62,000 bases of DNA, taken from Zygnema cylindricum. Its lineage: Eukaryota; Streptophyta; Zygnematophyceae; Zygnematales; Zygnemataceae. Positions within the stretch are counted from its first letter, which is position 1, and each line of letters opens with the position of its first letter. Below are positions 11,436-42,720 of this stretch, in pieces. Location: NCBI GenBank assembly GCA_037447655.1, contig JBBHKE010001613.1:1-62000 (forward strand), given 5' to 3'. The notes beneath the pieces are model-generated. The model did not search any database. It had not been told where the DNA came from and saw only the letters and a program-made list of their open reading frames with translations. The position numbers and the translations under genes were made by a program.

Positions 11436-11790
11436 GTGGACTTGGCCTCGTACATGGACACCGGAGGAGGTAGAAATCGGTTTTGTTTTTTAGGGCTCAA
11501 AGATACTATGTCCTTGTCCCACTTCTGTATGCTTTTTGATACCGAGATGTGCGATCTTGCATTCCGGTATCAAGACCGTTATGACTTACGGGTGGCGTTC
11601 TCTTTACTATGGCGATACCTAAGGGGATATGCCTTATCTCTTTACACTCGGAAATATGCCCTAACTCTTTACATTCGGAAATATGCGGCGATCTGTGCCA
11701 TGACAGATATGGCACCTGCCTATTCGGGCACGCTAGCCATAACCGGCAGCCCGGAATTTTTTTTCCAACCCGCGGTACCTGCAGTTTATT
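11436..11790 (+). pseudogene. Ty3/gypsy G1 gag, N-terminal fragment
   Basis: The frame reads SLSHFCMLFD, DLAFRYQDRYDLRVAFS and AMTDMAPAYSG. These align with the G2 gag (TLSHFRMLFD, DLAFWYQDRFYLRVAFS, AMTEFSLAFAG at 27351-27640). Homology stops near FQPAVPAVY and resumes at about 13150, so an insertion splits the gene. Gag forms the retrotransposon particle. This copy cannot be functional. Confidence 0.7.
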
Positions 11791-13140: not shown

Positions 13141-13149
13141 CGAAATTTC

Positions 13150-13834: not shown

Positions 13835-15155
13835 TGTCATGTTGCATCTCGTCGGCCATTTAAATTGTTTATATGTAGGTTTTAGGATGGGCAACCGCTA
13901 CACTAATTTGCTTTTGGGTATATTTAGGTTTCGCAGGGCCGTACATACTTAAGTTGGTCGGCCGTACATACTTACGTTGGTCGTAATTTCCGCCGACGGT
14001 GACTTCGACCGTACGACATACATTCTTCGTGATTTCCGCCGACGGTGGATTTATTCATTTCATCGTCTGTACCATATATATTCTGCATGATTTCTGTTGA
14101 CGGTGAATTCGATATTTCACGTCGAGTGTACGACTTACATTTTCTGAAATTCGTGCTACGACAAAACGGACCGTACTTGCGGTCATATTGTACATACTTT
14201 CGTTTCCCAGAATTCCGACCGACGACAAATTTTAATCATTTTGCTTGAAAGAGCATCTCGACTGTCAACGCAAAATATATAACCTTTGAATTAGGACATC
14301 TAGACCGTTTACGCGAATGACAGAAAAATCGGCTGTCAGTTTTGACGAAACGACGTGATTGGGCCATTTTAAGTCGTGAACCACTTGGAGGTTCATGCGT
14401 TCACACGTAGATAGGAAGGGATTCAATCCGTAGGTTCTAGATTCTATAACGTGGGGCATAGGATTTTGGCCTCTTATTGGCTGAATCCAAACTAGACGCA
14501 AATACTTACATAGCACGTTGTATTCTGATTGGCCTATTTTCGCTGGGCGTAGTTTTTGTTACTTAGTTCATTTTAGATTATTTCCTGGTCACAATTTTCA
14601 AGTGCAGGAATTATTTATTGATTTATTTTAACTATTGAGGATTTTCTGCACCATCTTTTTATTTGTAAAATTCTCCAGACAGCTTAAAGGCGATTTTCTG
14701 CCTTAGCGTGAAGCGTCTAGTTTCTTAAATTTTCAATCTCTTGTAAAGCTTTATATATTAATCTATATGGCTTCGGCCAAGACCTACACGGTTTCCCTTC
14801 AATTCTCTCGTCCTTTTGAGTGGATTTCGACCGCGTTCTAACGACAGAAACTTCTTTTCCCCGTTGTGGCCGAACTTTAATTAGTGTGGAAGTGCCATAT
14901 TGGGATATTGTTTTATTGTTGTTGTTTCTTGTGATTGTGTATTTATTTGGCTTATGCGCATCTTTTGAGTTTGGTTATCTCAAACCTCATAAGTGTCGGG
15001 CATATTGTCATTTTCAGTTTTTGTTTGTCTTTTTTCGGTTGTTTATGTTTTGATTTGTTTTATTTAAGTATAAATTCGGATTATTCTCGATAACATAACT
15101 CCTACAAGGAATATAAATAGACCGTAGGGCCTAGTGGCCATCCATCGGCTTAGTA
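13835..15155 (+). repeat. G2 5' LTR (right border uncertain)
   Basis: Starts TGTCATGTTG directly after the interrupted G1 gag and aligns with 41239-42521 as far as GGCTTAGTA. The true 3' border may lie further right, up to about 15293 where ...GTCGCACA is followed by TTTGGCGC, because the right LTR copy is truncated. CCGTACATACTTA(A/C)GTTGGTCG occurs twice near 13939 and 13961. Confidence 0.75.
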
Positions 15156-19062: not shown

Positions 19063-19167
19063 TTGGTCAGCGTTTTTGTCTGGCAGGGTGGCAGTTATTT
19101 TTGCTTAAACACAAAGGGGTCAGGATTATCCTAGAGGCTTCTTGGAAGCTGTCCACTCTGAGGACTT

Positions 19168-22100
19168 ATGGAGGTCTCAGAGTTACAGGTTATGGGCCCA
19201 CCCTCTAGGGTACCAATCTTTAATGGAACTGGCTTCATATACTGGGAAAGTATGATGATAGGAGCTCTATGCGAAAAAAGGTTTTGGGGGATAGTGAGTG
19301 GACGATTGGGGCGTCCATCAAGTCTTGGAATTCCTCCAGGGTTTGGAGGAAGCAGATTCACCAGGAAAGAGGATTCACCTTCAACGGAGGAAACAAAGGA
19401 AGGAGAGGTGGTGGACAAAGGAAAGGAGAAGGAGGCGACCACACCAATAGCAACTGGTTTAGCATTCATGTCACCTATTCCAAGGAACGAGGAGAATGAT
19501 ACTGAAACCTGGGACTTCAACAATATGGCGGCAAAACACTTCATCCTACGCCATCTCACTCAAGGACTTGCATGTCCTCATTTGCAGGTAGAAAGGGCAT
19601 CCGATCTTTGGATGGCTCTTATAGAGATGTACCGAAGTGGTACGATTCAGCAACAACAGTTGGCTGATCAGAAAGTTAAGGAGTATGTATACAAAGGGGG
19701 GAATATGTTGGATTTTTGCAATGAGCTTGCTACACTCTTCATGGAGCTACAGAGTGCGGGAAAAGATTTGAGTGAAAAAGAAAAGGTTAACTGTTTACTG
19801 ATGAAGTTACCTGATGAGTTCGTGAACATAGTTTACCGTGTGCAGGACTTGCCTGACTCAAGGTGGATATGGAACTCAGTGGTAGGAATGATTCTCGTTC
19901 AAGAGAATACAATTGAGATCCGAAGGGGAGGAAAGAGTGGCCAAGCCTTGGCAACAGCGACTGATTGGAGGAACAGGGATTCCCGAAAACCGGTCGGAAA
20001 CTATGGGGGTAGGGAGCAGAAAAAACCGGCCGATGAGTTCGAACCAAGGGCTCCCAAAGGACTATGTCATTTTTGTAAGAAACCGGGGCACTATATGGCA
20101 GAGTGCACTAAGCTAACCGAGCTTCGGTTAAAAGAGGGGCAGACCGGTGGTACCCCGAGAGGAAAGAAAAAGGCCCTTGTCACACAGGTACTTGAGGCTG
20201 AATCCGAGGACGAGGACGATGAGCTCCTTTTGGATGAGGAGTTGGAGGCGAAAAATGAGGTCGAAATTCCACGGAGGCAGAAATGTGCTTACGGTGGATT
20301 GAAAGGTGAAGCAGGCTGGATTGTAGATTCAGGTGCCTCCATGCACATGTGTAAGGATAGACACCTGTTCACTAAGATAAGAAAGATTCCCACCGTAGAG
20401 ATAGAGTACGGGGATGGGAGGATAGTCACCACTACTCTTGTAGGATCGGTAGATCTAAAAGTGTTAGTAGAAGGAAAGACATCCATATTAACATTCTCCG
20501 ATGTATTGTTTATTCCGGAGCTGAACAAAAATCTTATCTCTACATCAGTATTAGATGATAAGGGTTTTTTTACTAGCACTAGGGAAGGAGTCTTTACTGC
20601 TAGTTTTGAGGATGATGTCTATTTCATTGCTGAGAAAGGTAGCCATGGGATGTTTAGGCTGATCTTAAGTAATGAAAAGAAGAAACTTTATTATGCTGGT
20701 GTTCATGATATTATGATGTGGCATAAGAGGCTTGGGCATGTGAATCTAGATAAGTTAAGAGAGATGAAAAAGATGGGAGTGGTGGAAGGGATTCAGTTCA
20801 GTGAGAGTGATGATATAAGTGATTGTAGTGGATGTGCTCAAGGTAAAGCACACAGATTACCCTTTCCTAAGTCAGCCACCTATAAGGGAGAAAAAATTCT
20901 AGATCTAGTACACACAGATATTTGGGGACCGGCTAAAGTGCCCTCACCGGGGGGGAAGAGATTTATGATGACTATAACTGATGATTGGTCTCGGTATTCC
21001 CGGGTATATTTTTTGAAAAACAAGTCCGAAGCTGAGGATTGTTTTAGACAATATAAAGCATGGAGCGAAAAACTCCATGAAACTCCAATCAAGAGAGTAA
21101 GAAGTGACAATGGTGGAGAGTATACTTCTAACCAGTTTGAGGATTTTCTGAGAGAAGATGGGGTTCAACACCAAAAGACAGTTCCAGAAAATCCTGAACA
21201 GAATGGGGTAGCCGAGAGGTTAAATAGAACACTAAGTGATAGTGCTAGAAGTATGTTGTCAGATAAAAGGATAGGGAAAAGGTTTTGGGCAGAAGCAATG
21301 AACTGTGCTAATTACCTCAAGAATAGAGTTCTTACTTCAGCTATAAAAGATCAAACACCTTATGAGAGATGGACAGGCCGGAAACCAGACATATCTCACT
21401 TAAAGGTTTTCGGCAGTCAAGTGTTCAGTCTAGATACTGATCGGTCAAATTGGAAGCTAGATCCTAAAGGAAAACCAGGATACTTATTAGGATATGATGA
21501 AGATGTTAAAGGATATAGAGTTTATGATCTAAAAAGGGAAGATATAATCTTAGTAAAGCATCTAGTAGTTATGGATGAAGGAAAGTCTGTAGATCCCTTC
21601 AAATATACGAAGTCAGTAAAAATCAGATTTGAGTCAGAAAATTCCGATGACTTTGAGCTTCCTAACTATCCAGGTTTTAGAGAAGATGACATTCTTGCAG
21701 GAACAAATCAGACTGAAAAGGACTCGGCTGTGGAAACCCCAGTGACAACTCTACTCGAAGCGGAAGACGTGGTGGAAATTGATTCGGAATCAAGGGATAG
21801 GGGAGAAGTCGAGTTTGTTCGAAAGAATCCACGAGAACCATCTATTCCGGCCTCAGATTTTGAGGGGGGGAGGAGAAGTAGCAAAAGACTGCAAGAAAAA
21901 CAGGTTAATAACAAGGTAACTAAACTATCTCATCAAGATGAACCTCAAACTTATGGAGAGGCGATGACTTGTCCAGAAAGAAACCGGTGGAAGACAGCCA
22001 TCAATGAGGAGATGGCTTCAATCATGGCAGCCGATACTTGGGAGCTGGTGGACTGTCCACCTAACCGAAAACCAATCGGTTGTAAGTGGGTTTTCAAACT

Positions 22101-23526
22101 AAAACTGAACCCAGATAACACAATCGAGCGCTACAAGGCCAGATTAGTGGCAAAGGGATTTACACAAAAGGAAGGAATTGACTACGAGGAAACCTTTGCT
22201 CCAGTGGTCAGATTTCCCTCCGTCCGCATACTTCTCAGTTTAGCGGCGGCGGAAGACATGGAAGTGCACCAGATGGACATAAAAACAGCCTTTTTGCATG
22301 GAGAATTGGAAGAGGAGATCTTCATGCGACAACCCGAAGGGTTTGTGGAAGAAGGAGAGGAGAGTAAGGTATGCCGGCTAATTAAATCTCTTTATGGTTT
22401 GAAACAGGCACCTCGACAATGGAATAAGAAGCTTGATGAGTTTCTTACCGGTCTGGGATATATTCGGATCAGCTCAGATCACTCAATCTATGTTTTCGAA
22501 GATGAGGAAGGTTTGATATTTATTGCAATTTATGTTGATGATTTGCTTGTATTAAGTAAATCAATGGAAAAAATTAACAAACTGAAAACCGATCTTAAGG
22601 GGAGATTTGAAATGAAGGATATGGGAGAAGCAAGATATATTTTGGGAATTCAAGTAGAGAGAGACCGAAAAAGGAAAATTATAAGATTGACTCAAAAAGA
22701 AGCAATAGGGAACATGCTTGAAAAATTTCAAATGGATAAAGCTAATAGTTGTACAACTCCAATGGAGTTGAAGAAGGGAAGTGAGGGGAGTGAGGAAGAA
22801 GGAGTCATAGTCTTAGACGAGGAATTATCTCCTGATGAACAGAAGTTCATGCAGACCATTCCTTACAGGCAAGTAGTGGGAAGTCTAATCTATTTTATGA
22901 ATTGTACCCGGCCGGATTTAGCTGCAGCTGTAGGAGTGCTGAGTAGAAGTCTAAATGCTCCCACTAAGAAGGATTGGGAGGCAGCTAAGAGAGTCCTTAG
23001 ATACTTGGTAGGAACTAGAGATCTATGGTTGCATTTGGGTGGGGAGAATACTGACATCACTACTTGGAGTGATGCCAGTTATGGTGATGCTCCGATGAGG
23101 AGATGTACTTCTGGATATGTATTATATGTGGGTGATGGGGCTTGCTGTTGGAGTAGCAAACAGCAAAAGGTTATTGCTCAGTCCACCATGGAGGCTGAGT
23201 ATATGGCCTCTTGCTCTGCTGTAAAAGAATTGATGTGGGTCAAGTCTTTGCTTGGTGAGCTTGGTCACCTTAAGAGTGGTGTGCAGAAAATATTTTGTGA
23301 TAATCAGGCAGCAATCGCTATCTCTGCCAATCCTAAACACCATTTTAAAGCCAAACACATGGACATCAGACTCAGTTTTGTTAGAGAGAAAGTAGAAAAC
23401 AAAATAATCAGTTTAGAGTACAGACCAGATAGTGAGATGGTAGCAGATATGATGACCAAACCTGTGCCTTCCCCTAAGCTAATTTTTTGCAGGGAGAAGT
23501 GTGGTCTGAAATTAAAGATTGACTAG
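19168..23526 (+). CDS. Copia gag-pol polyprotein, 1452 aa, intact
   Basis: Encodes all functions for copia-type retrotransposition. Gag core is about residues 20-260. The zinc knuckle CHFCKKPGHYMAEC is at about 300-313. Protease has WIVDSGASMHM (catalytic Asp about 386). GAG-pre-integrase has HKRLGHVN and CSGCAQGKAH. Integrase has HTDIWGP (Asp about 584), SDNGGEY (Asp about 647) and GVAERLN (Glu about 683), giving D-35-E spacing. RT carries YVDDLLVL at about 1122. RNase H has STMEAEYMA and ends near TKPVPSPKL. The single frame has no stop or shift between gag and pol. The start at 19168 lies inside the 5' LTR; an alternative in-frame ATG at 19192 lies within the PBS. Confidence 0.97.
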   Translation: MEVSELQVMGPPSRVPIFNGTGFIYWESMMIGALCEKRFWGIVSGRLGRPSSLGIPPGFGGSRFTRKEDSPSTEETKEGEVVDKGKEKEATTPIATGLAFMSPIPRNEENDTETWDFNNMAAKHFILRHLTQGLACPHLQVERASDLWMALIEMYRSGTIQQQQLADQKVKEYVYKGGNMLDFCNELATLFMELQSAGKDLSEKEKVNCLLMKLPDEFVNIVYRVQDLPDSRWIWNSVVGMILVQENTIEIRRGGKSGQALATATDWRNRDSRKPVGNYGGREQKKPADEFEPRAPKGLCHFCKKPGHYMAECTKLTELRLKEGQTGGTPRGKKKALVTQVLEAESEDEDDELLLDEELEAKNEVEIPRRQKCAYGGLKGEAGWIVDSGASMHMCKDRHLFTKIRKIPTVEIEYGDGRIVTTTLVGSVDLKVLVEGKTSILTFSDVLFIPELNKNLISTSVLDDKGFFTSTREGVFTASFEDDVYFIAEKGSHGMFRLILSNEKKKLYYAGVHDIMMWHKRLGHVNLDKLREMKKMGVVEGIQFSESDDISDCSGCAQGKAHRLPFPKSATYKGEKILDLVHTDIWGPAKVPSPGGKRFMMTITDDWSRYSRVYFLKNKSEAEDCFRQYKAWSEKLHETPIKRVRSDNGGEYTSNQFEDFLREDGVQHQKTVPENPEQNGVAERLNRTLSDSARSMLSDKRIGKRFWAEAMNCANYLKNRVLTSAIKDQTPYERWTGRKPDISHLKVFGSQVFSLDTDRSNWKLDPKGKPGYLLGYDEDVKGYRVYDLKREDIILVKHLVVMDEGKSVDPFKYTKSVKIRFESENSDDFELPNYPGFREDDILAGTNQTEKDSAVETPVTTLLEAEDVVEIDSESRDRGEVEFVRKNPREPSIPASDFEGGRRSSKRLQEKQVNNKVTKLSHQDEPQTYGEAMTCPERNRWKTAINEEMASIMAADTWELVDCPPNRKPIGCKWVFKLKLNPDNTIERYKARLVAKGFTQKEGIDYEETFAPVVRFPSVRILLSLAAAEDMEVHQMDIKTAFLHGELEEEIFMRQPEGFVEEGEESKVCRLIKSLYGLKQAPRQWNKKLDEFLTGLGYIRISSDHSIYVFEDEEGLIFIAIYVDDLLVLSKSMEKINKLKTDLKGRFEMKDMGEARYILGIQVERDRKRKIIRLTQKEAIGNMLEKFQMDKANSCTTPMELKKGSEGSEEEGVIVLDEELSPDEQKFMQTIPYRQVVGSLIYFMNCTRPDLAAAVGVLSRSLNAPTKKDWEAAKRVLRYLVGTRDLWLHLGGENTDITTWSDASYGDAPMRRCTSGYVLYVGDGACCWSSKQQKVIAQSTMEAEYMASCSAVKELMWVKSLLGELGHLKSGVQKIFCDNQAAIAISANPKHHFKAKHMDIRLSFVREKVENKIISLEYRPDSEMVADMMTKPVPSPKLIFCREKCGLKLKID
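19188..19202 (+). promoter_or_regulatory. Element B primer-binding site, also gag coding sequence
   Basis: GGTTATGGGCCCACC immediately follows the LTR and is complementary to the anticodon stem-loop of initiator tRNA-Met (GGUGGGCCCAUAACC). Drosophila copia uses the same internal half-tRNA site. It is translated in frame as V-M-G-P, and its ATG (19192) pairs with the CAU anticodon. Confidence 0.85.
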
Positions 23527-26755: not shown

Positions 26756-27350
26756 GTTAGAGGGAACGAGATTGGAGTGGATTTGTTCAAATCCACTCAT
26801 ATTGAGCATTGCATTTTTCTAGCTTTCCATGCTTGCTATCTGGCTCTGAGTGGCCTTAGCTAAGTTTGCTTTGTTTAGTGTGATATTTTCTTTAGATCTT
26901 GCCGTTGGTGGCATTAATATGTTTCCTTTTGGATTGTGTTGTTGTAGATCTGCACTTGTGAGTGCTTGATAGTAAGTTATTTGCCTTTGTAGATCTGGCC
27001 GTTCGACCTTGTCCCCTTGATTGTAAGGTTGAAGGTTTCGGTAATACGGCTTCCTGATAGATCTGGCCATCAAGGCCTTGTTAGAGATTGATTGGCTGAT
27101 TGGACAAGAGAGTGGTGTGGCGTGGCATTTGAAACATGTCGTATAGATTGATTTTGTTATTTGGTCATCATTTGGTTTTATCATTTTTTATATCAGTATC
27201 TCAGTATCTTCTTTATCATCAAAGTCTTCCACACTTTTTGAGGAAGAATCTGACCACAAATCCATTGAAGGGTCGAATTCCAATTCATTATCATTTTAGT
27301 TTCCTATAATTACAAATCCATTATTAGCCCCAATAATTGCATTAGTGGAA
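26756..27350 (+). other. G2 leader, second part
   Basis: Resumes after element A. It contains dispersed AGATCTGGCC/ATCTGGC phrases (26838, 26990, 27060) related to the 40-bp array in G1. No gene. It leads into the gag ATG at 27351. Confidence 0.6.
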
Positions 27351-28678
27351 ATGGCTTCCATATCTGAGGGAGTGGGTAGGCTTCATTTCTGTTTTTCAAG
27401 AATGAATGACAGTATGACCTTATCCCATTTCCGTATGTTATTCGATATCGAAATGACCGATCTTGCATTTTGGTACCAAGATCGGTTTTACCTACGGGTT
27501 GCTTTCTCTGGGTAGGTCGTTACCTTTGTGGTTCGGCCCTTACTCTTTATTCTCGCAAGTATGATTCTGTCCTTGCAATGACAGAGTTTTCTCTAGCTTT
27601 CGCTGGGAGCCCTGCTATTTTAAGACAATTTGAAATTCCCTACCAACCGGCTATTCCGGAAGTCCTTGATCTCCACGGCGATGTTATTACAGCATCAATG
27701 GCGGAAATACCGGAGCAATTTGCTATAGCCGCACGTGCTGGAATCTCGGCACAACCAGCGATGACGATCCCTATTCTAGATCCGCTCTCAGTCATGTTTG
27801 AAATGTTGCAAGCGGAATACCGTATGCAAAACCCTGACCAAGTTCGCGAATTGATGAACTTTGAACGGAAATTAGGAGAGTCCGCCCCTACCATGCGTAC
27901 TCGTATATAAGTTTTTCGTGAAGCATTGTCGGACTTGATGTCTGATGTTGAAGCTTTCCAAGAATTTGTAGGACAATTTCCGAGTCAGTCTAAGAAATTT
28001 AATCAGAGTCACTTGACTCAAACCTACGGCTAAAAGTTCACTTTCGACCAAGCCGCCCAGCATGCTGTGGAATATGGAACCCAAAACTATTGGTGGGAAG
28101 CCCATGACCGTCCTAAAGCGATCCCGAAAGAACCAACTTTTCAAACATGGAACAATCCTCGTCGTAACAACCGACCTTCTAAAGTCCCGGCCATGGGAAC
28201 CCCACCAGTTGCTCCCGGAAATAGATTATGTTTTCGATGTGGGAAGACGAGGCACGATGCCCGAATGTGTCCAGACAAAAATGCTACTTGTACACATTGC
28301 AAGCAAACAGGACATTATGTCCAACGTTGTCATATAAAGAACCCAAAATTTTCTTATCATAACCAAGTTAAGAGTGGTGGCATTTCCGCTCGATTCGCAA
28401 AACCAGTTCAACCGGTTAAAGAACATGAAAAGGACACCACTCCACCTAAGGTATCTCGAAGAGATAGAGAACGTTTGGAAATGCAAGAGCAAATAGCGGT
28501 CATGATGAAGGAGCAGTTTGCGGCATTCATGGCTCAAATGAAGCCACAATTTACAGGCATGGCTCGCACCGTTGTACACATGTCTACGTTGGTAGGTCAA
28601 CCCTTACGAGATTCCACCGTCCAACAACGAGAGGCTACGTTCAATAAAGGTTTGACCGATCTCAGCCGTGACGGTTAA
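27351..28678 (+). pseudogene. G2 gag (Ty3/gypsy) with two CCHC zinc knuckles
   Basis: ATG at 27351 opens MASISEGVGRLHFC and runs to a TAG near 27510. Other frames continue with AMTEFSLAFAG, MQNPDQVRELMNFERK (to about 27910), then FTFDQAAQHAVEY and both knuckles, CFRCGKTRHDARMC and CTHCKQTGHYVQRC, each intact CX2CX4HX4C. The stretch after the knuckles is charged and Gln/Met-rich. At least two frameshifts plus stops at 27908 and about 28031 break it. It would have formed the particle and bound element RNA. Confidence 0.85.
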
Positions 28679-29510
28679 ACTCCTAACACGCTTATTCCGT
28701 TGTCATTTACTGAAGAACCTTCTCCTCCCATGCCCGAAAGGGCTTCAGCCATCGCGGTTGAACCTCTCAATATAGTGGGTCGAACCATACATGAAGCACA
28801 TCACGTGAAAGAACATTTGTGCATTCTATCCACTATGATTTCTGACACTCCAAAACTCTCTTTTTATTCTCTTCTACCCCCGATAGTTCAGCTGCAGCTG
28901 CCGCTTTACAAGCACTGTAGCTGCACAAAAATCTTGCTACTATTCAGCCTATTTCCGTGGAGGAGCAAAATTCCCTCGATCCTCACATCAGTTTTTTGGA
29001 ATAGGGGAAGGGATCCTTATTGATCAATGGTATAGCCCCTTCCATGCCCCTCATGGATACAGGTGGAAAGTTGGTGATATTGGGCTCTAGCTTTGCACTC
29101 AAGCTTGGTGTAACTCAAGACAAGCTTCAGCCCACTACGACTCGCTTGTTAACATCAACGGGTACAACCGAGCTAGTCTTAAGAATCACTAAGGTACCAC
29201 TCTTCTTTCGGTTCATGAATGGAACGGACACGAACTTTGCACAGATCTCGGTTCACGCTCTAGTCACTAAATGTAGTGATTATGAATGCCTAGTGGGATA
29301 GGATGTTATATTTCGTGTAGGGGGAGGAGTTGACATGCATGATCGAACATTTTCTTATAGATCCGTTAACTTCCCAAAACGCAAAATCTGCATTCTGCTA
29401 ATTTTTGCTATGAAACCCATGCATGTTATGGCGCATTCGGCCACCTTCATACGTGCATTTTTGGGGAATTTTGTGGGGGCCGAAATTCTTCATTCATTGT
29501 GAGCAAAAGA
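28679..29510 (+). pseudogene. G2 aspartic protease region
   Basis: The frame 29020-29301 contains MPLMDTGGKLVILG, a retropepsin active-site-like D-T-G, followed by SFALKLGVTQ and, later, YECLVG. A TAG at 29299-29301 replaces the residue after YECLVG, and the reading continues in the same frame with DVIFRVGGGVDM. It precedes the methyltransferase domain. Confidence 0.65.
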
Positions 29511-29708
29511 AATTCTGACAGATAGTTTTTACTTGGCGGAAATTTTCAGTGACTCATGATTTCTTATGGATACGAGTGAATTTGATCACATCTATAACCA
29601 AACCTTGTCAATTCCACTTTCTCCAATCTCTCCTCCAATCCAAATTCTTACAGACTTCCTACAGACTCGTCTGGGTTTTTTCCAATTAATTGGAATCCGG
29701 TCCAATAA
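29511..29708 (+). other. G2 linker between protease and methyltransferase
   Basis: Readable in one frame as TSEFDHIYNQTLSIPLSP and neighbouring sequence, with no recognised domain. Several stops. Confidence 0.4.
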
Positions 29709-30690
29709 AGACCTCATCCAAATGTATTGGTGATTTTGGACCAATTCGGTTGAATTGGGACTTCCCTCCTTTCTTGTTTGCGAAATGGATTATTAATCCG
29801 ATTTTATTATTCTGTCGTGATTGATACTTTAGCACGGAAAGCAAAAGTACATCAGTGTGATATGTTGCATTCCCAATACCCGCATTTGTTACCAAAATTC
29901 GCATACAAGCATATGCATACTGCCCTCCCACAAGACATCCGGATTGTGGGCAACCATCACTTATTGGATATTGGTCTAATCAATCTAGTTGTTGGGCGGA
30001 TGGGAGTGCCAAGGAATGTCGGGCCGGGAAAGGTCTCAAATTAGCCGATCCCCGCACCAAATTATTTTGTTTATTGGTTCGCATCCTACATTTCCTACAA
30101 ACTTTAGAACATTCTATGGGATGTATCTCGGAAAATGGCGCGGCCTATAACAATCAAACACCCATGGTTGTGGCTAATTATCAACGTATTGAACAATTAA
30201 TTGGTCCGTCGCTTATTATTGATGCCGCTCGCCATCGTTCATTAGCACACCGGGTTCGCTACAAATGGACGAACCTGATTGATATTGGTCGACTTTGTGA
30301 GGCTAACTTGTCAGTTTGTCCTCCTCCTACAGATATTCAGGCTGCCCTTCTCCCTTTCCATAAGGTACAGCCGTGCATTCAAAAAAACTGTCCACCTCAT
30401 TCCAATATCAATGTCCCTGGTCAACCTCTCAAGGTTCTTCCTACCTTATTTTTTTGCCCGCATTCTCATGCATTCTCTAATGACGGTCATGGCATGCTTT
30501 GAAACATTCATATCGGTGAGCTCGAATAGCCTACCTCTCCGAAGCAAGAACACCTCCTCCTTTTCATTCCTTGCACTACTGCCGCTCCTGGTCTTACAGA
30601 ACGTCAAAGATGCAATTTATTAGGTCGTATCATGGACCCTCAGTCTTTGTCCTTTGTGTTAGGTCTTGGATTTACAGGTGGTCGCCACTC
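29709..30690 (+). pseudogene. C5-cytosine DNA methyltransferase domain (DNMT3-like order) inside G2 pol
   Basis: Motifs occur in canonical order. Motif I (SAM binding) is ILDQFG-stop-IGTSLL at about 29733-29770, with TGA at 29751-29753 in place of a Gly codon. Motif IV has the catalytic-type Cys in GGWECQGMS (Cys codon 30007-30009). Then DPRTKLFCLLVRIL follows, motif VI as CISENGAAY, motif VIII as AHRVRYKWTNL, and motifs IX/X as TERQRCNLLGRIMD near 30590-30634. These align best with DNMT3 (GTGRLFFEFYRLL, FENVVAM, AHRARYFWGNL, RQRLLGR). Motif order is not the permuted DRM order. Two frameshifts flank motif IV, and stops lie at 30500 and 30527. Protease lies before it and RT after it, so it is an integral pol domain. 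Confidence 0.87.
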
Positions 30691-30874
30691 TCAGACACAT
30701 CTGTATCAACCAGCTAGGTGGGGAAATGCATCACTAAGTAAATCTTTCCGTCCCACTCTCATAGAGACCACATTTCAATTTTTCCTCTTTTTTTCTCCAA
30801 TTCCACCAATTCTGGAAATCTCTATATACGATTTCCTTAATCTTAGCCACATGTCGTGGTCTATTCCCACATAA
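30691..30874 (+). other. G2 linker between methyltransferase and RT
   Basis: Low-complexity reading in the same frame as the end of the methyltransferase, no recognised domain. Confidence 0.4.
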
Positions 30875-31144
30875 TTGGCTGTCCAATCTACAAGTTCCAT
30901 GCATATTCCACCCACTCCTCATTATAGTGCTGCTTTTCCAACACACAGCTGGAATCATTTAATTAATTGCTTTAAACAGAACCATGTGGCTTACGAGTTA
31001 GGACAAATGCTTATCGCAGATGAGCAATTGGCCTTTGCACAAGCCATGGAGGCTATGACAATTGAGAATCCCGAGGCTCCTAAATGGAAATTCGGCCCCT
31101 ATATAACAAAGGCCGAACAAGAATTACTAAATGACGTAGTTTTA
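30875..31144 (+). pseudogene. G2 pol segment before the RT, interrupted by element C
   Basis: Reads HYSAAFPTHSWNHLINCF, YELGQMLIADEQLAFAQAME and KAEQELLNDVVL, and is cut by the TTTTA target site of element C. The frame resumes at 38080 and runs into the RT. Confidence 0.7.
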
Positions 31145-32150
31145 TGCAATTTTGTGTCCACGAGTGGACTACAAAATTCAAGAAGCCTCTAGATAGTTAT
31201 TAACTAACCCACTTCCAATGGCAACCACTGCTACCCAAGCAGACAAGCAAACAATCTTACTGCACCCCTGTGTATCCTGGATTCCCCTGAGTCCGTAGGA
31301 AAAAGAATCTGAGAAAACGCCCAGCCAGGCGATAAGTTATGATCTGGCAAAAAGGCCCATTTTATACAAAGCTCTCTTAGGGAGAGGTGACTACCTACCA
31401 AATTTCCTAAGTCCTAAACCCCTCTCACAGCCCCTATCTACTCAAGTACGAACCAATCATATGACAGTAAAGTACAGAAAGGTTCTACGACCGATGTCCT
31501 TTCTGTACGGCATGTGTACGACAAGTCCACTAAGTGAACGCTTCTCACTTTTCAACTCGTCCGTTCATTCCTTAGAATTCCCACGACCGAATGTCATCCT
31601 TCCACGAGGCGCCAAGTCATGCCAGGTCCATAAAAGCCAAAGTGACCATTCCGCGATCTCGACGATGATATGTGCCGTCGGATTAAATCTGACATTAAAT
31701 TTTGACCGTCGAAACAAATGTCCGATTCATTTGTTTCGTGCGAAATGACGTCCGCACTAAACTTTAACAGGTTCTATGTTCCTTCGTTCGAATTCCCATT
31801 AATTGATTTCAATACCATACAACATTTTAAATACATATCGAACCCTATATCTCCTAACGGACTTCTACGACAGAGTGGTTAGAGCCAACAACTACCCCAC
31901 GCTCTGCTGGTCGGAAGTTCGAGTCTTGTCGGACTCAACCTTTTGTTGAGAGTGACTTAAGTCACTCTTTAGTCTTGCCTGATGAGCTAGGACACCTATG
32001 GCTCAACTACTCTCTCTATCCCTCAGTGACTATAACAAGCATGGTGGGTAGAGAGAGGAGGTGGAGGCAAGCTGTTTGCCTTTTTCTTTTCCTTTTTGTA
32101 TTGAACTATTTAGACCTAGAAAATACCACATTTTTCTCATAATTTCAACA
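31145..32150 (-). repeat. Element C 3' LTR
   Basis: On the plus strand it runs TGCAATTTTGTG...ATTTCAACA. It contains the tRNA-like segment at 31866-31935. Confidence 0.93.
31866..31935 (+). other. tRNA-like segment antisense to element C (3' LTR)
   Basis: The best example in the window. The plus strand has GACAGAGTGGTTAGAGCC, close to a Pol III A box, and AAGTTCGAGTCTTG, close to a B box, about 40 nt apart. It lies opposite to the element's transcription. Confidence 0.65.
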
Positions 32151-32852
32151 CTCCCCTTATTTTCTAGTCTAACTTTAAGTTCAGTTTTAACCCACACTTA
32201 TCTTTGCAATATTTTAACTTGGGAGAAGGCACCGGTTTTGTCATCATATTTGCCACCATTTTCTCATCAGATCTATATACAAGATTCGCAATCTTATTCT
32301 CAACTTTTTCTCTTACAAAACTCAATCTTATGCCTATATGTTTAGTCTTAAAATGATGTTTTCGATTAGCTGCAATTGTAATGGGAGCTTGATTATCACA
32401 AAACACTTCATGCACTCCCTCCTTCATATACCCCAGTTCTTGCAACAAGGACTTGACCCACATCAACTCTTTCACAGCAGAACAAAGGGCCATGTACCCA
32501 ACCTCCACAGTAGAAAAGCAGCCACCTTTTGTTGCTTACTGCTCCAACAGCAAGCACTTTCCCAAACATATTACACATACCCAGATTTGCATCTTCTCAT
32601 AGGTGTGTCCCCATAACTGGCATCACTCGAAGTAGTGATGTCAATTTGCTCCCCTCCCAAATGCAACAATAACTCTCTAGTTCCAACCAGATATCTCATG
32701 ACTCTCTTGGCTGCCTCCCAATCTCTCTTCCTAGAATCATTAAGACTCCTACTGATTACTTTCAGTCGTAAATAGATTAAACTTCTTAATGACTGTCTAT
32801 GGGAATAGGTGCCGTGGTCATGGGCATTTAGAGTCCGCCGATCACTCCCCAC

Positions 32853-33415
32853 TAAGTCACACTTGCACCATTTGGATATTCACCTCGGAGGGCGGGGATC
32901 ACTAATTGGACCAAGCCGAGCCATTAGTAGATATGACAGAAAGCAAACCGAAACCTGGGTATAGTGTAAGATATGTAACTCCAAATGAAAGAGGTCTTTC
33001 AACCATACAAACATGGACCTTAAGCAAATCAAAGACAATAGAGCACAAAACACCTTAAACTGCAGACAGTGCTCACATTTCCTTAACCCTTGTGTAGTAT
33101 GTATATTCTGTAGCAAACTGATCATTCCTAATTGAATTAAATACTCTAAAGATCCTCAAAATATCTAAAACGTATGTACAAGTACTGACAAAAATCTAAG
33201 TGATTGGACCAGAATTGTCCACTAACAATATCTATTCCCTAAAAATCCGGGTGATTCTCATCACGTCCACATTCATTGGCGGCCCTACACACTAATTTAC
33301 TTAAAGATAACTATTTGTGTTGATACTACAAAAAATCCACACTAAATTTGGTCAATGTTGAACAGTTGGTATTCCAAAAATATTCTAAGTCCTAGACTCA
33401 AATTTCTAAGACTTA
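32853..33415. other. Insertion inside element C RT/RNase H region
   Basis: Relative to element B, about 560-600 bp of unrelated AT-rich DNA lies between the RT end (...REFMKSIL near 33430) and the RNase H side (...VISRSLND near 32750). No TIRs, LTR ends or coding domain recognised. Confidence 0.5.
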
Positions 33416-36400
33416 CTAAAGCTTACTTTTCAATATAGACTTCATAAACTCTCTCTCCTCTAGACTCATGTGATCATCTAAGATCATCACTCCTCCTACA
33501 CTCCCATCACTTACTTTTTTCAAGTGTATGGGAGTGGAACAACTGTTAGCATTTTCCATCTGGAATTTCTCAAGCATATTACCTATTGCTTCTTTCTGAG
33601 TAAGTTTGATAATCTTCTTTGCCCTATCTCTCTCCATTTGAATCCCCAAAATATATCTTGCCTCCCTTGAATCCTTCATATCAAATCTGCTTCTAAGATC
33701 TTTCTTTAACTTATTGATTTTTTCTAGAGATTTACTCAACAAAAGTAGATCATCCACATAAATTGCAATATAAATAACACCATTTTCATCTTCAAACATA
33801 TAGACAGAATGGTCAGAGCTGATCCTGATATATCCCAGACCGGTGAGAAACTCATCTAGTTTCTTATTCCTTGTCGGGGAGGCACTTTACAGATAAGGAC
33901 TTTATGAGCATGCAAACTTTGCTCTCTTCTCTTTCCTCCACGAACCCCTCGGGTTGCCTCATGAAAAATTCTTCCTCTAACTCACCATTAAGAAAAGCGG
34001 TCTTAATGTCCATCTAGTGTATTTCCATGTCTTCCGATGCTGCCAGACTGAGGAGAATCCTTACTAATGGGAACCGAACAACTGGAGCTAAGGTCTCCTC
34101 ATAGTCAATCCCCTCCTTTTGGGTGAACCTCTTCGCTACGAATCGAGCCTTATATCTCTCAATGGTATTATCTGGGTTCAATTTTAGTTTAAATACCCAT
34201 TTACACCCAATATGTTTTTTGTCTGGAGGATAATCCGCTAGTTCCCAAGTATTTGATTCTATGATGGAGGCCATCTCATCATTTATGGCTCTAATCCATC
34301 TTTCTTTCTCTGGACTATTCATTCCCTCCGAGTAAGAATGAGGCTCATCTAGGTGAGATGGCTTAGTTACCTTATGAGTGGCTTGTTTTTCATGTATCTT
34401 TTTGCTGCTCCTTCTCCCTCCCTCAAACTCCGAAGCTGGAATGGATGGAAGTCTTGAATTTCCCCTCACTGTCTCATCGGCTCCCCTGTCCATGGAAGCC
34501 GGTTTTGGTCCCACTTCTTCTATCTCCTCAAAGTCCATAGGAGTATGTGAGGTTTCAGGTGAGTCTTCTATATCTCGTTTCTCCCTTGAGTGTTCAATCA
34601 CGGTTTCACTCATGTCCCTTTTGGTAACGACCAAGTTCTCCTCATATTTGGACTCAAATCTGATTCTTTTCTTATTTCTATATTTGAAGGGGTCAAATGA
34701 CTTCCCTTCATCCATGACAACTAGGTGTTTGACCAGAATGGTATCTTTCTTTGCTATGTCATAAACTCTATACCCCTTAACATCCTCATCATATCCCACA
34801 AAGTATCTAGGTTTTCCCTTAGCATCTAGCTTCCAGTTTTTCTTATCCATGTCAAGACTGTAAACTTGGCTACCAAATATTTTAAGGTGAGAGACATCTG
34901 GTTTACTTCCAACCCATCTCTCATAAGGTGTCACTCCCTTTACAGCTGAGGTAAGAACTCCATTTTTAATGTAGTTGGCACAGTTCATTGCCTCTGCCCA
35001 AAATCTCTTTCCTATTTTCTTGTCGGCCAACTTACTGCATGCACTATCTCCTAGTGTCCGATTCAACCTCTCAGCTACCCCATTTTGTTCCGAGTTATAT
35101 GGTACAATATTTTGGTGCTGCACTTCCTCATTTGTTAGATATTCCTCAAACTGGTTAGAGGTATATTCCCCCCCATTATCACTCCTTATTCTCTTAATGG
35201 GGATGTCATGCAACTTCTCACACCAGGCTTTATATTATTTGAAGTAAAATGATGTTTCAGACTTTGTTTTTAGGAAATACAATCTAGAGTATCTGAACCA
35301 GTCATCGGTTATTGTCATCATAAACCTCTTTCCTCCAATCGAAGGTACTTTTGCAGGTCCCCAAATATCTGTGTGGACCAAATCTAAAACCTTCTCACCT
35401 CTATATGTGGCGGCTTTGGGAAAAGGAAGTCTGTGAGCCTTACCTTGAGCACAGCCACTGCAATCATCCATCATTTCATTATCCCCAAACTGAATGCCTT
35501 CTTCTACCCCAATCTTTTACAATTCCCTCAACTTATCAAAATGCACATGCCCCAACCGCTAATGCTAAATCATCAACTTAGGAACACCAACATAGTAAGC
35601 ATTATTCTTTTCATTACTCAGGTTAAGCCTAAACATTCCTTGGCTACCCTTATCTGCCATGAAGTAAACTTCATCCCCATACTTTGCTGTAAAGACTCCC
35701 TTTCTAGTGAAGGTATCAAACTCCTTGTCATCTAACACAAACGTAGAGACATGATTTTTACTCAGTTTACGAATGTAGAGTACATCTGAGAATGTAAGTA
35801 TAAAAGTCTTACCCTCCACTAAGACTTTCAGATCTACTGACCCTACTAGATCTGTAGTAACCACTCTCCCATCCCTATACTCTATCTCTACAACAGGGAT
35901 CTTTTTTAGCTTAGTGAAGAGTTCCTTATCACGGCACATATGCATAGATGCACCTGAGTAAATGATCCACCCTTATTGCGGCGCTTCCTGAATTGCTCCA
36001 AGGGCACACTTCTATCTCCGAGGGATCTCCTTTTTCTCCAGACTCTCGTCAAGAAGAAGCTCCCCATCCTCCTCCGAGGACTCGTCCTTGGTTTCTCCTG
36101 TCACTTTTGTGACCACAAGTGCATGTTTCTGTAAGAATACCCTCCACGATTCTCTTGGAGACTCAGCTCCGACAGCTTGACACAATCTGCTATAAAGTGT
36201 CCCATTTTTTGCAAAAATGAAAAAGACCCTTTGGGGGGCTCTCTCCTCCAGAGTGATTTCTTTCCCCTTTGTACGGTTTCTTTGGGTCCTCTCCCCATCG
36301 GTTCCCTCCTGCTGCTACAGCTTGAATGCTCTTCCTCCTCTTCTAATCTCCATTGTGTTTTCCTACACAAGTATCATCCGGACCACTGTGTTCCATTTCA

Positions 36401-37058
36401 TGAACTATCAGATATTTCTTGTACTCGGTACATTATTTTTTCGTACTCATCGGGTAGCTTCATGATAAGAGTCTTGACTTTCATTTTCATTGTACCTGTC
36501 CAACCGGCACTTTTCATCTCCATATACAAACAAAAAAGATCATTACAGTAATCTAATATCTTTCCTCCTTTGTAAGTGTAACTCACTAGCTTTAGCTGAG
36601 CCAATTGGAGCTCTAGAATAGTTCGATCTCTATAGATCACCACCAAACTCACCCACAACTCCTCGGCCTTGTAAATGTGAAGATGAGAGGTGGCCAAAGC
36701 TTGAGTGAGGTGCCTCAGAATGAAGTTCTTGGCAGCCATGTTTACATCCTCCCACATTTGAGTATTGTTCTCTGCGGTCTTCACGGTCCCTGCTCCCGGT
36801 ACTGTGGCAATAGGAGTGAGGGGTGTCTCCTTCTCTTTCCCCTTTTCGGACACACTGCTGTCCCCATCATCTGCCTCCTCCGCCGAGGCAGCCGTTGCTG
36901 CAGGAAACCTTACTCCTCCAAATCCTAGTGGGGTTCTTGAAGGTGGACGTTTCACTTGTCCACTGACGATACCCCAGTATCGTTTTTCGCACAAAGCTCC
37001 CATCATCATGGCTTCCCAATAGATGAACCGAGATCCATTGAAGGTGGGCACCCTAGAG

Positions 37059-37073
37059 GGTGGGCCCATAACT
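37059..37073 (-). promoter_or_regulatory. Element C primer-binding site
   Basis: The minus strand reads AGTTATGGGCCCACC, one mismatch (first base) from the tRNA-iMet anticodon-arm complement seen in A and B. It is in frame with gag (V-M-G-P). Confidence 0.8.
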
Positions 37074-38074
37074 TGCAATTTTGTGTCCTCCATTGGACTA
37101 GAGAATTCAGGATGCCTCTAGATAGTTTTTAGCTAACCCACTTCCAATGGCAACCATTGCTACCAAAACAGACAAGGAAATAATCTATTAACACCCTTGT
37201 GGAGCTTGGACTCCCTTAAGTCCGTGGGAAAAAGAATCTCTGAGAACGCCCAACCAGGCGATAAGTTATGATTTGGCAAAAAGGCCCAGTTTATACAAAG
37301 CTCTCTTAGAGAGAGGTGACAACCTACCAAATTTCCTAGGTCCTAAACCCCTCTCACAGCCCCTATTTATTGAAGTACGAACCAATCATATGACTGTAAT
37401 GTACAGAAAAGTACTACGGCCGATGTCCTTTCTGAACGGCATGTGTACAACAATGCCACTGAGTGAACGCGTGTCACTTTTCAACTCGTCTGTACATTCC
37501 TTGGAATTCCCACGACCGAATGTCATCATTCCACGCGGCGCCAAGTCATGCCACGCCCATAAAAGCCAAAGTGACCATTTCGCGATCTCGGCGATGATAT
37601 GTGCCGTCGAATTAAATCCGATATTAAAATGTCGACCGTCGAAACAAATGTCCAATTCATTTGTTTTGTGCGAAATGATGTCTGCACTAAACTTTAGCAA
37701 GTTCTATGTTCTTTCGTTCAAATTCCATTTAATCGATTGCAGTACCATACAACAGTTTAAATACATATCGAACCCTATATCTCCTAACGGACTTCTACGA
37801 CAGACTGGTTAGAGGCTACGCTGCGCTCTATCGGTCGAACGTTCGAGTCCTGACGGACTCAACCTTTTGTTGAGAGTGACTTAAGTCACTCTTTAGTCGT
37901 GCCTGTTGAGTTATGAGAGCCATGGCTCAACCACCCACTCTATCCCTCAGTGACTACAACAAGTATGGTGGGTAGAGAGAGAAGGTGGAGGAAGGTTGTT
38001 TGCCTTTTTCTTTTCCATTTTGTATTGAACTATTTAGACCTACAAAATACCACATAAATCGAATAATTTCAACA
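37074..38074 (-). repeat. Element C 5' LTR
   Basis: Plus-strand TGCAATTTTGTG...ATTTCAACA. It carries the tRNA-like segment at 37796-37856 and the gag ATG at 37093, 20 nt from its inner edge. Leader hairpins persist as CGCC-TGGTTG-GGCG and GGACT-TAAGGG-AGTCC (minus strand). Confidence 0.93.
37796..37856 (+). other. tRNA-like segment antisense to element C (5' LTR)
   Basis: CAGACTGGTTAGAGG (A-box-like) and ACGTTCGAGTCCTG (B-box-like, very close to GGTTCGANTCC) about 30 nt apart, opposite to the element. It has diverged internally from the 31866 copy while keeping both boxes. Confidence 0.65.
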
Positions 38075-38079
38075 TTTTA

Positions 38080-39531
38080 CAAAATATAAACTCCTTTGCT
38101 TTTTCAGTGAACGATTTGGGTCGTCAAACCGCTTATAAGTTGTTGATAGTTCTCGAAGATGACCGTCCGATATTTAAACTGAAACATCGTCTGTCAAAAA
38201 CTGAATGGGAAATGGTAGACAAGCCATGTGATGAACAGGAGGAAGCTGGCCTAATCTATCAGTCAGACTCCACATTTGCAGTTCCCATCATCATGCCTCG
38301 GAAAAAGGATTTTCAGGTTAATTTTACTGAACGTCGAATGTGTGGTCATTATCGTGAACTAAATTCTAAGACCGTTCAAGATCGTCATCCCATGCCCCTA
38401 GCCGAGGAAACATTTGACCACATACACAAGGCGAATTATTTTAGTATCCTTGACCTCCGTCAAGGATTCAATCAAATTGAGACTGAGGAAAAAGACCGAC
38501 ATAATACTGCCTTTTGGGGTAGTGACGGCCGATGGGAATCGGCCGTAATGCCATTCAGACTGAAAAACGCTCTAGCGGTATTTCAAAAAGTCGTGTTCTC
38601 GGTTCTCAGAGGTTGTAAGTTTGCTAGATGTTACATCGATGACCTCATCATTGTCTCTGCTACTATCGAAGAGCAGCAACTCACATCGAATTGGTATTGA
38701 CTGAGTTTAAAAAGGTCAAATTAAAGTGTCATCCAGCGAAATGCACCTTTGGAGCCGAGGGAGTACCTTACCTCGACCATTTTATTTCGGCTGAGGGGAT
38801 CACTCCTCTCGAAAAAAAGGTTGAGCCAATCAGTAAATTGCCGACTCCCGCAGACCTCACAAGCCTGCAAGCCTTTCTCAGACTTGCTAATAATTATCGC
38901 AGGTTCGTATCTAATTTCAGTACCATCTCATCTCCTTTAAACGACCTTCTCAAGAAAGAATTGGCCTTCATATGGGGTCCTGATCAGAGTTCCGCATTTC
39001 AAAAATTAAAAAAATTGCTATATCGAGTGCTCCTATTCTCCGTCTCCCAATCACAAACTCTGTTTTGTTCTCCAAACATATTTTGGAAAACTCGGAATCG
39101 CTGCCATTTTGACACAAAGAGAGTTGAGCGGAGAGGAATATGTAGTTGCTTATGCGAGTAGAAGGAATAATCTTGCTGAATCGAAATATAGTAATTACGA
39201 AGGGGAATGTCTACGCTTTAATGCTTCACTCGGCCATTTGTACGAAAGTTTCACACTTCTAACTGACTATCAACCCTTACATTAGCTGATGACTAACGAT
39301 AAGCTTTCCATGAAACTAGCCCGATGGGCTTTAATTTTGCAAGAATATGACGTTGAAATGATTCACCGACCCAGTCTGCTTAGTCTAAACGCGGACGAAT
39401 TTTCCAAAAATCCTTTGCCCCGAACGACAGATAACGGAGTTCGACAGGATTTTGACGACGATAATGTTCCAGTCATGTCAGTGGGTTCTTATCTTACATA
39501 CTCTCTGGCCTCTATTCGGAACCCTCGTTAA
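38080..39531 (+). pseudogene. G2 reverse transcriptase and RNase H (Ty3/gypsy)
   Basis: RT motifs include FAVPIIMPRKKDF, RMCGHYRELNSKTV, HPMPLAEETF, FSILDLRQGFNQIE and the catalytic box CYIDDLIIVS at about 38632-38658. The connection continues in another frame (38691-39161: PAKCTFGAEGVPYL, LPTPADLTSLQAFLRLANNYRRF), then RNase H sequence ends LARWALILQEYDVEMIHRP (39289-39531). At least two frameshifts. The family is clearly gypsy by sequence and order. Confidence 0.9.
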
Positions 39532-40803
39532 GCCACAGATCCTTAGCGTGATGGGCCTCTCATTCTTTTCCTATCCTCCCAAACCTTTAAGTCTGGCACT
39601 ACCTTTGACGAAGAAGACAGGGTGAAAAAGAGAGCCAAAAATTACCTTTGGCTCAGAGGATCTTTAGTTTGGTTGCTAGAAGACGGAAGCCATAGACACA
39701 TCCCTCGTCCTACCGAGCGGCTTTCTCTAATTGAGCATATTCACATCGAGCTTGGTGACTACGGTACCAAGCGGACGTTAAGCCTTGTTTAGGCAAGGTA
39801 TTGGTGGTCAAGAATGCAAACTGATGTTGCTGCCATTCTACACAAGTGTGCCACCTGCGATTGTATCGAAACTTTTTTCTCTAATCGACAAAATACGCTC
39901 CAACCTCTACCCATTAGGGGTTTATTCTATCGATGGTCGGTTGATCTGGCTGGACCTTTTCCATTCTCACGTAGAGGAAAACAATGCATGATGATTATGA
40001 TCAAAAATTTCACTAAGTGGGTAGAAGTTGTAGCTCCGCCTCACTAGACTGCAAAGCTAACCACCACAACCTTTAAGAAACATGTCTTTATGAGATACGG
40101 TGCCCCAGCGCAGGTCCTTACGGATCAAGGTTTAGAATTTTGGGGAGAATTTCAAGAGATGCTTGATGAGGCTCTCATCGATCATCGTTGTACTAGTCGC
40201 GCTCACCCTCAGGCCGATGGCCTAGCTAAACGGGCAGTCTAGACATTTAAGCGTGCCTTGCGTAACCATTGCTTAGAAAAACACATTTCAGTTTGGGACG
40301 AGTCCCTCGCCTACATTACCATGGGATATCCCATGTCAGTTCAAGCTAGTCTCGCTAGTTTCAGCCTATATTATGTTTTATTTGGGCAACAACCGTTGCT
40401 CGGTCGCAATATTCAGAAAGCTAAAAGCTTTCCGCTTTTGCTGATGTCTGACATTATCTTTTTGGAAAAACTCACTCGTCGTGCTTTGTTTTTTGCCTGT
40501 GAAATGTCCATGGCTTTTGATAATCTGCAGATTGCCCAGCATCAAGACACACTTCGGTTTGCCACCACTCAAAGCGGCAGTTACAAGCCGCAACAGAAGC
40601 GCTATCGAGTGGGAGACTATTTGTATCTTCGCAGGCAATCTTTTTTACACTTTGGACACGGATGTTTCAGCACACATCCTACGAATTATCGAGGTGGATC
40701 TGAACGGAATGTTGGGATTACAAGGAGCAGACACACGGACTTTCCGGGAGCACTATGTAATTATATACTATACTAGAATTGTGCTCTATGTTATTTACCA
40801 GAT
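39532..40803 (+). pseudogene. G2 integrase (Ty3/gypsy)
   Basis: The N-terminal zinc-binding region is degraded: IEHIHIELGDYG has lost the second His, while HKCATC keeps the Cys pair. The catalytic core shows RWSVDLAGPF (first Asp), GAPAQVLTDQGLEFWG (second Asp) and PQADGLAKRAV, where the third acidic residue is replaced by Lys. A TAG follows at about 40240. The C-terminal part has RYRVGDYLYLRRQ and, in a shifted frame, HILRIIEVDLNGMLGLQGAD. A TAG at 40774-40776 separates it in frame from the PHD finger. Confidence 0.85.
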
Positions 40804-41028
40804 TTGTCGCAAGATACATATCCCATGCGGATGCCAATTACGGAGGCGACAGTATGTACCTTTTGTCGTTTGGACGGGGAAACTACCTTGTTACTTTGTG
40901 ATCATTGCAATCAGAGGTTTCACATGGTGTGTTTGACGCCACCATTGTTGGCGGTTCTAGAGTGTCATTGGTTTTGTCACGGATGTCGTAAGCTTTCGGT
41001 CGTGTTGGCCAGCTCCTCTGCCAGCTAA
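40804..41028 (+). pseudogene. PHD finger at the C-terminus of the G2 integrase
   Basis: The module at 40855-40986 has exact C4HC3 spacing: C-x2-C-x10-C-x2-C-x4-H-x2-C-x14-C-x2-C, with Trp two residues before the seventh Cys (HWFCHGC) and LLCDHC/FHMVCLTPP in the middle. PHD fingers typically read histone H3 tails. It is in the same frame as the integrase frame 40258-40776 with a single TAG between, and is followed by a short Ser-rich tail and a stop at 41026. Chromoviral integrases usually end in a chromodomain, so a PHD here would be an alternative chromatin reader. Confidence 0.88.
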
Positions 41029-41043: not shown

Positions 41044-41238
41044 AATAAACCGACCTGACCATAACCAGCTAAGTCGTCGACCTTTCTTTTTATTCCAACT
41101 TGCCAGTTGTTTTATTTATCAATTTTTCACTTTTATGTCTTATTTCATTCACAATAGTTTGTCATCATTTGGGTTTAAGTGGAGCACAGCTGATGATATT
41201 GCATGCATCTTCACGTTATTTAACACATGCACGACAAT
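41044..41238 (+). repeat. G2 3' UTR, first copy
   Basis: AATAAACCGACCTGACC...CACATGCACGACAAT immediately before the 3' LTR. An approximately 90 percent similar copy follows the LTR at 42523-42720. Confidence 0.85.
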
Positions 41239-42522: not shown

Positions 42523-42720
42523 AAATAAACCGACCTGACCAAAACCTTCTAAGTCGTCGACCTTTCTCTTTCTTCCACCTTTTCGTTGTTGTATTTATCC
42601 ATTTTTCACTTTTATGTCTTATTTCGTTCACAATAGCTTTTCATCATTTGGGTTTAAGTGGAGCAGAGCTGATGATATTGCATGCAACTTCACGTTATTT
42701 AACACATGCACTACAACACT
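42523..42720 (+). repeat. G2 3' UTR, second copy after the LTR
   Basis: Repeats 41044-41238 but sits downstream of the LTR and stops at the point where an LTR should begin (CACATGCACTACAAC). This suggests an LTR-LTR or template-switch rearrangement. It is joined to element F at about 42735. Confidence 0.8.

Follow-up and report, generated by a model that had tools for sequence, protein, structure and literature searches.

A DNMT3-like methyltransferase domain and a PHD finger in a Ty3/gypsy retrotransposon family of Zygnema cylindricum

We analyzed 62,000 nucleotides of the genome of the streptophyte alga Zygnema cylindricum (assembly GCA_037447655.1, contig JBBHKE010001613.1, positions 1 to 62,000; hereafter the window) and found a decayed Ty3/gypsy retrotransposon, denoted G2, whose pol almost certainly includes, judging from sequence, a C5 DNA methyltransferase of the DNMT3 type. 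G2 spans 27345-31150 and 38074-40992, its halves being parted by a nested copia element, and ends in a PHD finger. The same genome contains an intact sibling, L010. The best overall explanation of the architecture, homology, conserved catalytic residues, selection and young copies that we computed is, at a probability of roughly 0.6, that a gypsy-borne DNMT3 and a PHD finger act on the chromatin fate of the element's own copies.

The methyltransferase segment of G2 lies on the plus strand and is read in three frames with stops: frame 3 at 29715-29990, frame 1 at 29989-30021 (LLGGWECQGMS) and frame 2 at 30017-30700. The damage comprises three stops, one in motif I and two near 30500-30530, as well as two shifts of frame near 29990-30020; the catalytic cysteine of motif IV is still readable. 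An initial annotation of the window had placed the segment at 29709-30690. The segment itself proved real, and its boundaries are better set at 29715-30700. All the motifs named in that annotation (I, IV, VI-like, VIII and X-like) are visible in the raw translations, spread over the three frames and in the order it gave. The alignment to L010 agrees with this order and includes a piece in frame 1 at motif IV, the frame originally assigned.

Read frame by frame, the signal was weak. The best PDB matches of the 213-amino-acid open piece of G2 were to DNMT3A (E 1.2), and a Pfam scan of that piece gave no match. Used as a protein-database query, the decayed piece returned 175 candidates, none with E <= 0.01. 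The best six-frame chunk matched a DNMT3 profile at E 0.014, the next place at E 3.5. A frameshift-tolerant alignment to the DNMT3 profile scored 43.6 bits over 29814-30277. With the same alignment, 300 dinucleotide shuffles gave a mean of 16.5 bits (standard deviation 2.0, maximum 26.7), the top score among 162 other chunks of the window was 21.1 bits, and the reversed profile gave at most 20.8 bits. The decisive evidence is L010: because this intact sibling aligns throughout, the G2 domain is a real, decayed C5-methyltransferase. The alignment links three pieces, with E 2e-125 across the segment and 1.7e-120 against the L010 domain, and the two long pieces are about 65-68% identical to that domain. 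The counterparts of the named motifs in L010 read LDLFAGIGTS, GWECQG, LENIAAY, AHRVRSKWTNL and RQRCTLLGR, and its DNMT segment matches PF00145 at E 1.2e-12 (48.3 bits, cut-off 22). The C5-methyltransferase profile match that the initial annotation called for was thus obtained, both from the frameshift-tolerant score and from L010. Chance or over-reading of motifs in G2 is ruled out by the shuffles together with the intact sibling.

L010 is a single uninterrupted frame of 2395 amino acids in the order gag, protease, DNMT, reverse transcriptase (RT), RNase H, integrase and PHD finger. Pfam recognized the zinc knuckle, DNMT, RT, RNase H, integrase and PHD finger (PF00628, E 1.2e-11), and the protease fell under the Pfam cut-off. 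RT, RNase H and integrase stand in Ty3/gypsy order, and Ty3 RT was the best solved relative (E 2.3e-80). The element is flanked by direct long terminal repeats (LTRs) of 931 bp with zero mismatches, and a further copy, L011, is 99.9% identical to it over 7067 bp. No target-site duplication was evident at the ends of L010. The family therefore has young copies with intact coding capacity. G2 is a dead copy: its gag and DNMT regions carry both stops and frame changes, its protease, RNase H and integrase carry stops, and its RT has changed frame; LTRs of G2 were looked for and none were found. The position of the DNMT between protease and RT and the C-terminal PHD finger, both proposed from the window, recur in L010, which is also the intact sibling of protease-methyltransferase-RT order that the initial annotation had suggested seeking in the genome. 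L009, L012 and others make up a second subfamily, whose DNMT is about 42% identical and is followed by RT, RNase H and integrase in the same order and by a PHD-like end. In L009 and L012 this end, at the close of the pol frame, has a GWH core where L010 has GFH, and the subfamilies may thus read different states of histone H3.

We searched the genome (352,776,454 bases in 2689 contigs, the window being C1210) with the PF00145 profile and obtained at least 123 matches, scored from 782 candidates, with all of those listed above the cut-off. We read 24 distinct sites, 8 supplied with this search and the others chosen from its list; some contigs may be allelic, so the sites need not be independent, and because all were found through the DNMT, they say nothing on the frequency of siblings without one. 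At 20 of the 24, the DNMT adjoins a protease, RT or integrase of gypsy type with homology to L010. Among the remaining four, L020 has the DNMT alone in a stretch that ends early, the stretch of L103 is too short to judge, and L003 has a DNMT and, on the opposite strand, a weak match to integrase. The PF00145 match at L007 was not recognized by either DNMT subfamily query and is perhaps a host DNMT exon. These four sites, which lack a same-orientation gypsy gene beside the DNMT, and the broken G2 with its split frames could be taken to mean that a host DNMT gene was hit by a gypsy insertion or that the two are chance neighbors. The uninterrupted L010 frame refutes this, the 20 sites and the recurrence of the fusion in database proteins also speak against it, and we give it a negligible chance.

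The methyltransferase had been called DNMT3-like, and sequence similarity, motif VIII and fold support such an affinity. Against solved structures, the L010 domain matched DNMT3A at E 1.3e-10 and M.HhaI at E 0.0026, and a fold comparison of one relative placed DNMT3 nearest, identity being 21-26% across the fold alignments listed. We constructed a DNMT tree from 6 proteins with the DNMT before RT (including P0121), 25 with the other order, 6 rows from the Zygnema genome, the G2 open piece, 12 DNMT3 sequences (1 entered by hand and 11 from 120 listed of 869 matches) and 17 phage sequences. It left out 12 of the 44 database proteins described below, the long-branched P0164, and also DRM, DNMT1, CMT and algal host DNMT3. 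Three separate clades emerged, one of retroelement rows, one of animal DNMT3 rows and one of phage rows. Because the phage root forces the other two clades into sisters, the tree alone does not choose the nearest group. Relatives are encoded at 77 phage loci, 54 of them with readable frames; motif VIII is of the QRR type in 31 of the 54, and 21 were unread by the search pattern. Because the phage rows of the tree had been pre-selected by this QRR motif, what they show at motif VIII cannot count as separate evidence. We rejected a phage origin, as the phage rows form their own clade and motif VIII differs where read; against a prokaryotic source, the tree alone is not decisive.

When protein databases were queried with the L010 domain, 44 relatives among 5287 candidates reached E <= 1e-5. 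Those named are from Haematococcus lacustris (P0125, P0126, P0161) and Closterium sp. NIES-54 (P0158, P0160); the others come without an organism name (sources ena, jgi, lgn and ncbi), and none of the 44, mostly unnamed, is labeled Klebsormidium. The DNMT precedes RT in 6 and follows RT or RNase H in 32, so that two DNMT positions exist in pol; 4 more start at the DNMT and continue to integrase, 1 ends after protease-DNMT and 1 consists of the DNMT alone. An RT tree was built from 27 database and 6 own-genome rows, P0164 being dropped in a rerun. Because its root with Ty3 was not resolved, only the DNMT tree informs on which way the DNMT moved. A PHD finger follows integrase in 31 of the 34 relatives that extend 150 amino acids beyond it, including 30 of 30 with the second order; P0156, with 149 amino acids beyond integrase and no PHD finger seen, falls just below this cut. 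Solved relatives of the L010 PHD finger include PHF12, Lid/KDM5, BAZ2B, WSTF and PHF21A, several of which read unmodified H3K4; the histone ligand of the element's own PHD finger is a matter of guesswork. By precomputed annotation, P0130, P0131 and P0144 carry an additional G-patch domain (PF01585).

The DNMT is under purifying selection. The ratio of nonsynonymous to synonymous divergence (dN/dS), given only where measurable since other deep pairs had saturated dS, was 0.17 for L010/L016, 0.18 for L011/L016, 0.10-0.11 for three L004 pairs, 0.24 for L098/L102, 0.05 for L014/L102 and 0.11-0.39 in the second subfamily. It was 0.07-0.08 for the PHD finger and 0.08 for the protease in two pairs. 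The DNMT diverges faster than RT (79% vs 92% identity between L010 and L013). In an alignment of 45 sequences, the motif IV cysteine and the motif VI glutamate and asparagine are present in all 45. Motif VIII is of the DNMT3 type (HRxR..W, not QRRxR), with the first arginine in 44, the second in 43 and the tryptophan in 43, the rest being gaps; its arginine is kept in every row that reaches the motif. Canonical C5 enzymes have proline before the catalytic cysteine (PCQ). The 23 own-genome rows divide into 11 with glutamate there (the L010 subfamily), 11 with proline (the second subfamily and kin) and 1 unread. WPCQ is kept in all second-subfamily rows read at motif IV (11 rows from at most 10 sites, two rows sharing one site). 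We treat this residue as a variant site and not as defining for C5-methyltransferases.

Several observations weigh against an active enzyme that steers chromatin. The residue preceding the catalytic cysteine is glutamate in 36, proline in 7 and aspartate in 2 of the 45 sequences. L010 and L013 are only slightly depleted of CpG (observed/expected 0.87-0.92), L009, L012 and L018 moderately so (0.62-0.64), and in three pairs transitions were 1.5, 1.9 and 0.7 times as frequent at CpG as at other positions; lasting heavy CG methylation thus leaves no clear mark. The PHD finger is absent from 3 of 4 DNMT-before-RT proteins (P0122, P0148 and P0158) and present in P0164, and the protease pair L015/L098 has a dN/dS of 0.86, at a very low dS (0.03). 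According to the available text of PMC5890265, SymbioLINE-Dnmt did not methylate DNA in a yeast assay. On these grounds the domain could be a DNMT relative that has lost catalysis or acts on RNA, and that has been retained for a structural function such as nucleic-acid binding in the particle: the glutamate departs from the canonical proline, CpG decay is small in the L010 subfamily, and RNA methylation is raised for SymbioLINE-Dnmt in the same text. Against such a role stand the invariant cysteine and Glu-Asn pair, the motif VIII arginine wherever reached and the canonical WPCQ of the second subfamily, and we consider it unlikely; the DNMT of a live copy is probably an active methyltransferase, as its residues predict.

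In animal DNMT3A, too, the enzyme is joined to a histone reader of zinc-finger type, the ADD domain. The element enzymes resemble animal DNMT3A/3B in fold, nearest solved relatives and type of motif VIII (AHRxR..W.N). However, they mostly have Glu-Cys instead of Pro-Cys and lie within a Gag-Pol, and their reader is a separate C-terminal PHD finger. Chromoviruses are gypsy elements with a C-terminal chromodomain and so likewise place a histone-reading module after integrase; the Zygnema family differs in having a PHD finger in that place and a methyltransferase in pol.

Among published elements, KnitGypsy-Dnmt3 of Klebsormidium nitens, described by de Mendoza et al. in 2018, is a Gypsy-DNMT3 element (PMC5890265), so the kind is already known. 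The initial annotation had pointed to this class, and its suggestion of a relative is borne out as to kind (Gypsy plus DNMT3), the comparison being one of descriptions. As described in the text available, KnitGypsy-Dnmt3 has a DNMT3-related DNMT with conserved key residues within the Gypsy Pol open reading frame, as in the G2 family, and a Ka/Ks <0.2, comparable to the dN/dS in Zygnema (PMC5890265). Its figure legend gives a DIRS-like repeat arrangement, whereas L010 has direct LTRs, and the word PHD is absent from the main text (PMC5890265). SymbioDIRS-Dnmt3 of Symbiodinium also has a DNMT3 in a retrotransposon Pol, in two domain orders as in the relatives of L010, but belongs to another element class, DIRS with a tyrosine recombinase, unlike the rve integrase of L010; the Symbiodinium DIRS-type DNMT3 is described as methylating CG de novo (PMC5890265). 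Other partial texts report DNMT3 inside LTR elements (called Copia there) and DIRS of streptophytes and dinoflagellates, alongside a distinct ChloroDNMT lineage found in chlorophytes and charophytes (PMC12344493), and no DNMT3 identified in MMETSP green algae (PMC9998398). Retrotransposons of Gypsy and DIRS clades with adenine or cytosine methylases are reported from green algae and charophytes, among others, and not from land plants (PMC6338049). As green algae are named there, with the methylase type unspecified in the portion available, the finding in chlorophytes is not entirely without precedent. Among the matches listed (titles and abstract starts of open-licence PMC papers), we found no PHD-linked DNMT gypsy and no DNMT gypsy in Haematococcus or Closterium. 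The PHD coupling, the second pol position and the Glu-Cys motif look new.

If the family acts on the chromatin of its own copies, the DNMT of a live copy would be carried alongside RT and integrase inside the particle and would methylate the new complementary DNA (cDNA) or the fresh insertion, a choice of target that we hold at even odds. The PHD finger would tether integrase to nucleosomes bearing a given H3-tail state, a role about which we are equally divided. New copies would then insert into quiet chromatin, or be turned into it, a state tolerated by the host. That the element may have set the chromatin state of its copies, as the initial annotation suggested, is plausible; CpG depletion in the L010 subfamily is slight. 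The enzyme might instead counter host defense by shielding cDNA from foreign recognition or deamination, as proposed for Symbiodinium elements in the available text of PMC5890265 and in keeping with an antiviral role put forward in that of PMC6338049; the PHD finger points to chromatin, and we think this quite improbable. Taken as a whole, a longer history can be put forward only tentatively. One old DNMT3 capture may have founded a gypsy lineage across chlorophytes and streptophytes, with a single shift of the DNMT within pol, from a place ahead of RT to one between RNase H and integrase, and with motif IV rebuilt around Glu-Cys. The whole second branch and the window's family would pair the enzyme with an integrase-side PHD finger, a self-contained writer and reader parallel to DNMT3A/ADD.

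Table 1 Coordinates of G2 and of the element nested in it, with the evidence for each feature.
Feature	Position	Strand	Evidence
gag region of G2, two CCHC knuckles (~28205-28435)	27345-28840	+	tblastn with L010 frame, 57-71% identity by piece; zf-CCHC under Pfam cut-off
Aspartic protease of G2 (LMDTGG), one internal stop	29011-29388	+	70.6% identity to L010 protease, E 1.8e-58
DNMT3-like C5-methyltransferase domain of G2, decayed	29715-30700	+	L010 alignment; frameshift-tolerant profile score vs shuffles
Motif IV GGWECQG of G2: catalytic Cys, Glu replacing Pro	29989-30021	+	frame 1 piece; motif common to siblings
Nested Ty1/copia between G2 DNMT and RT; LTRs 31145-32150 and 37074-38074	31145-38074	-	LTRs 88% identical over 1007 bp; copia-like minus-strand frames
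Reverse transcriptase of G2, one frame change	38161-38939	+	77-80% identity to L010; PF00078 6.6e-13
RNase H of G2, one stop	39046-39405	+	75% identity to L010
Integrase of G2, with stops	39646-40422	+	78% identity to L010, E 2e-139
C-terminal PHD finger of G2	40834-40992	+	65% identity to L010 PHD, E 2.7e-19

The window also contains a related gypsy element, G1, at 8982-13834. It has an LTR-like part at 9151-10003 (76% to L010) and gag at 11058-11789 (73%) and 13127-13834 (90%), interrupted at 11790-13126; comparison with L010 found no pol or DNMT match downstream of this gag. Directly 3' of the G2 PHD finger are repeats at 41044-41237 and 42524-42716 (91% identical), and 41239-41467 matches the G1 end at 13835-14034 at 71%; these are perhaps remnants of 3' ends. 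An intact Ty1/copia frame of 1454 amino acids at 19162-23526 has a CpG observed/expected of 0.47, compared with 0.85 over the whole window and 0.87-0.92 in elements of the L010 type. An open frame with a Myb DNA-binding domain at 57108-57983 is probably a host gene, and minus-strand frames of short repeated peptides (STHVRN, LTPRMYET) form a low-complexity array at 217-1130. tRNAs were looked for in the window and none were found.

Retrotransposons are normally targets of DNA methylation; here a many-copy, recently inserted family carries an enzyme under selection together with a histone reader. The Closterium and Haematococcus relatives extend the single published Gypsy case, that of Klebsormidium, and the Glu-Cys form of motif IV raises the question of whether the C5 catalytic loop tolerates losing its proline. 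If the enzyme is active, the family would offer a test of whether a retrotransposon can select and impose the epigenetic state of its own copies.
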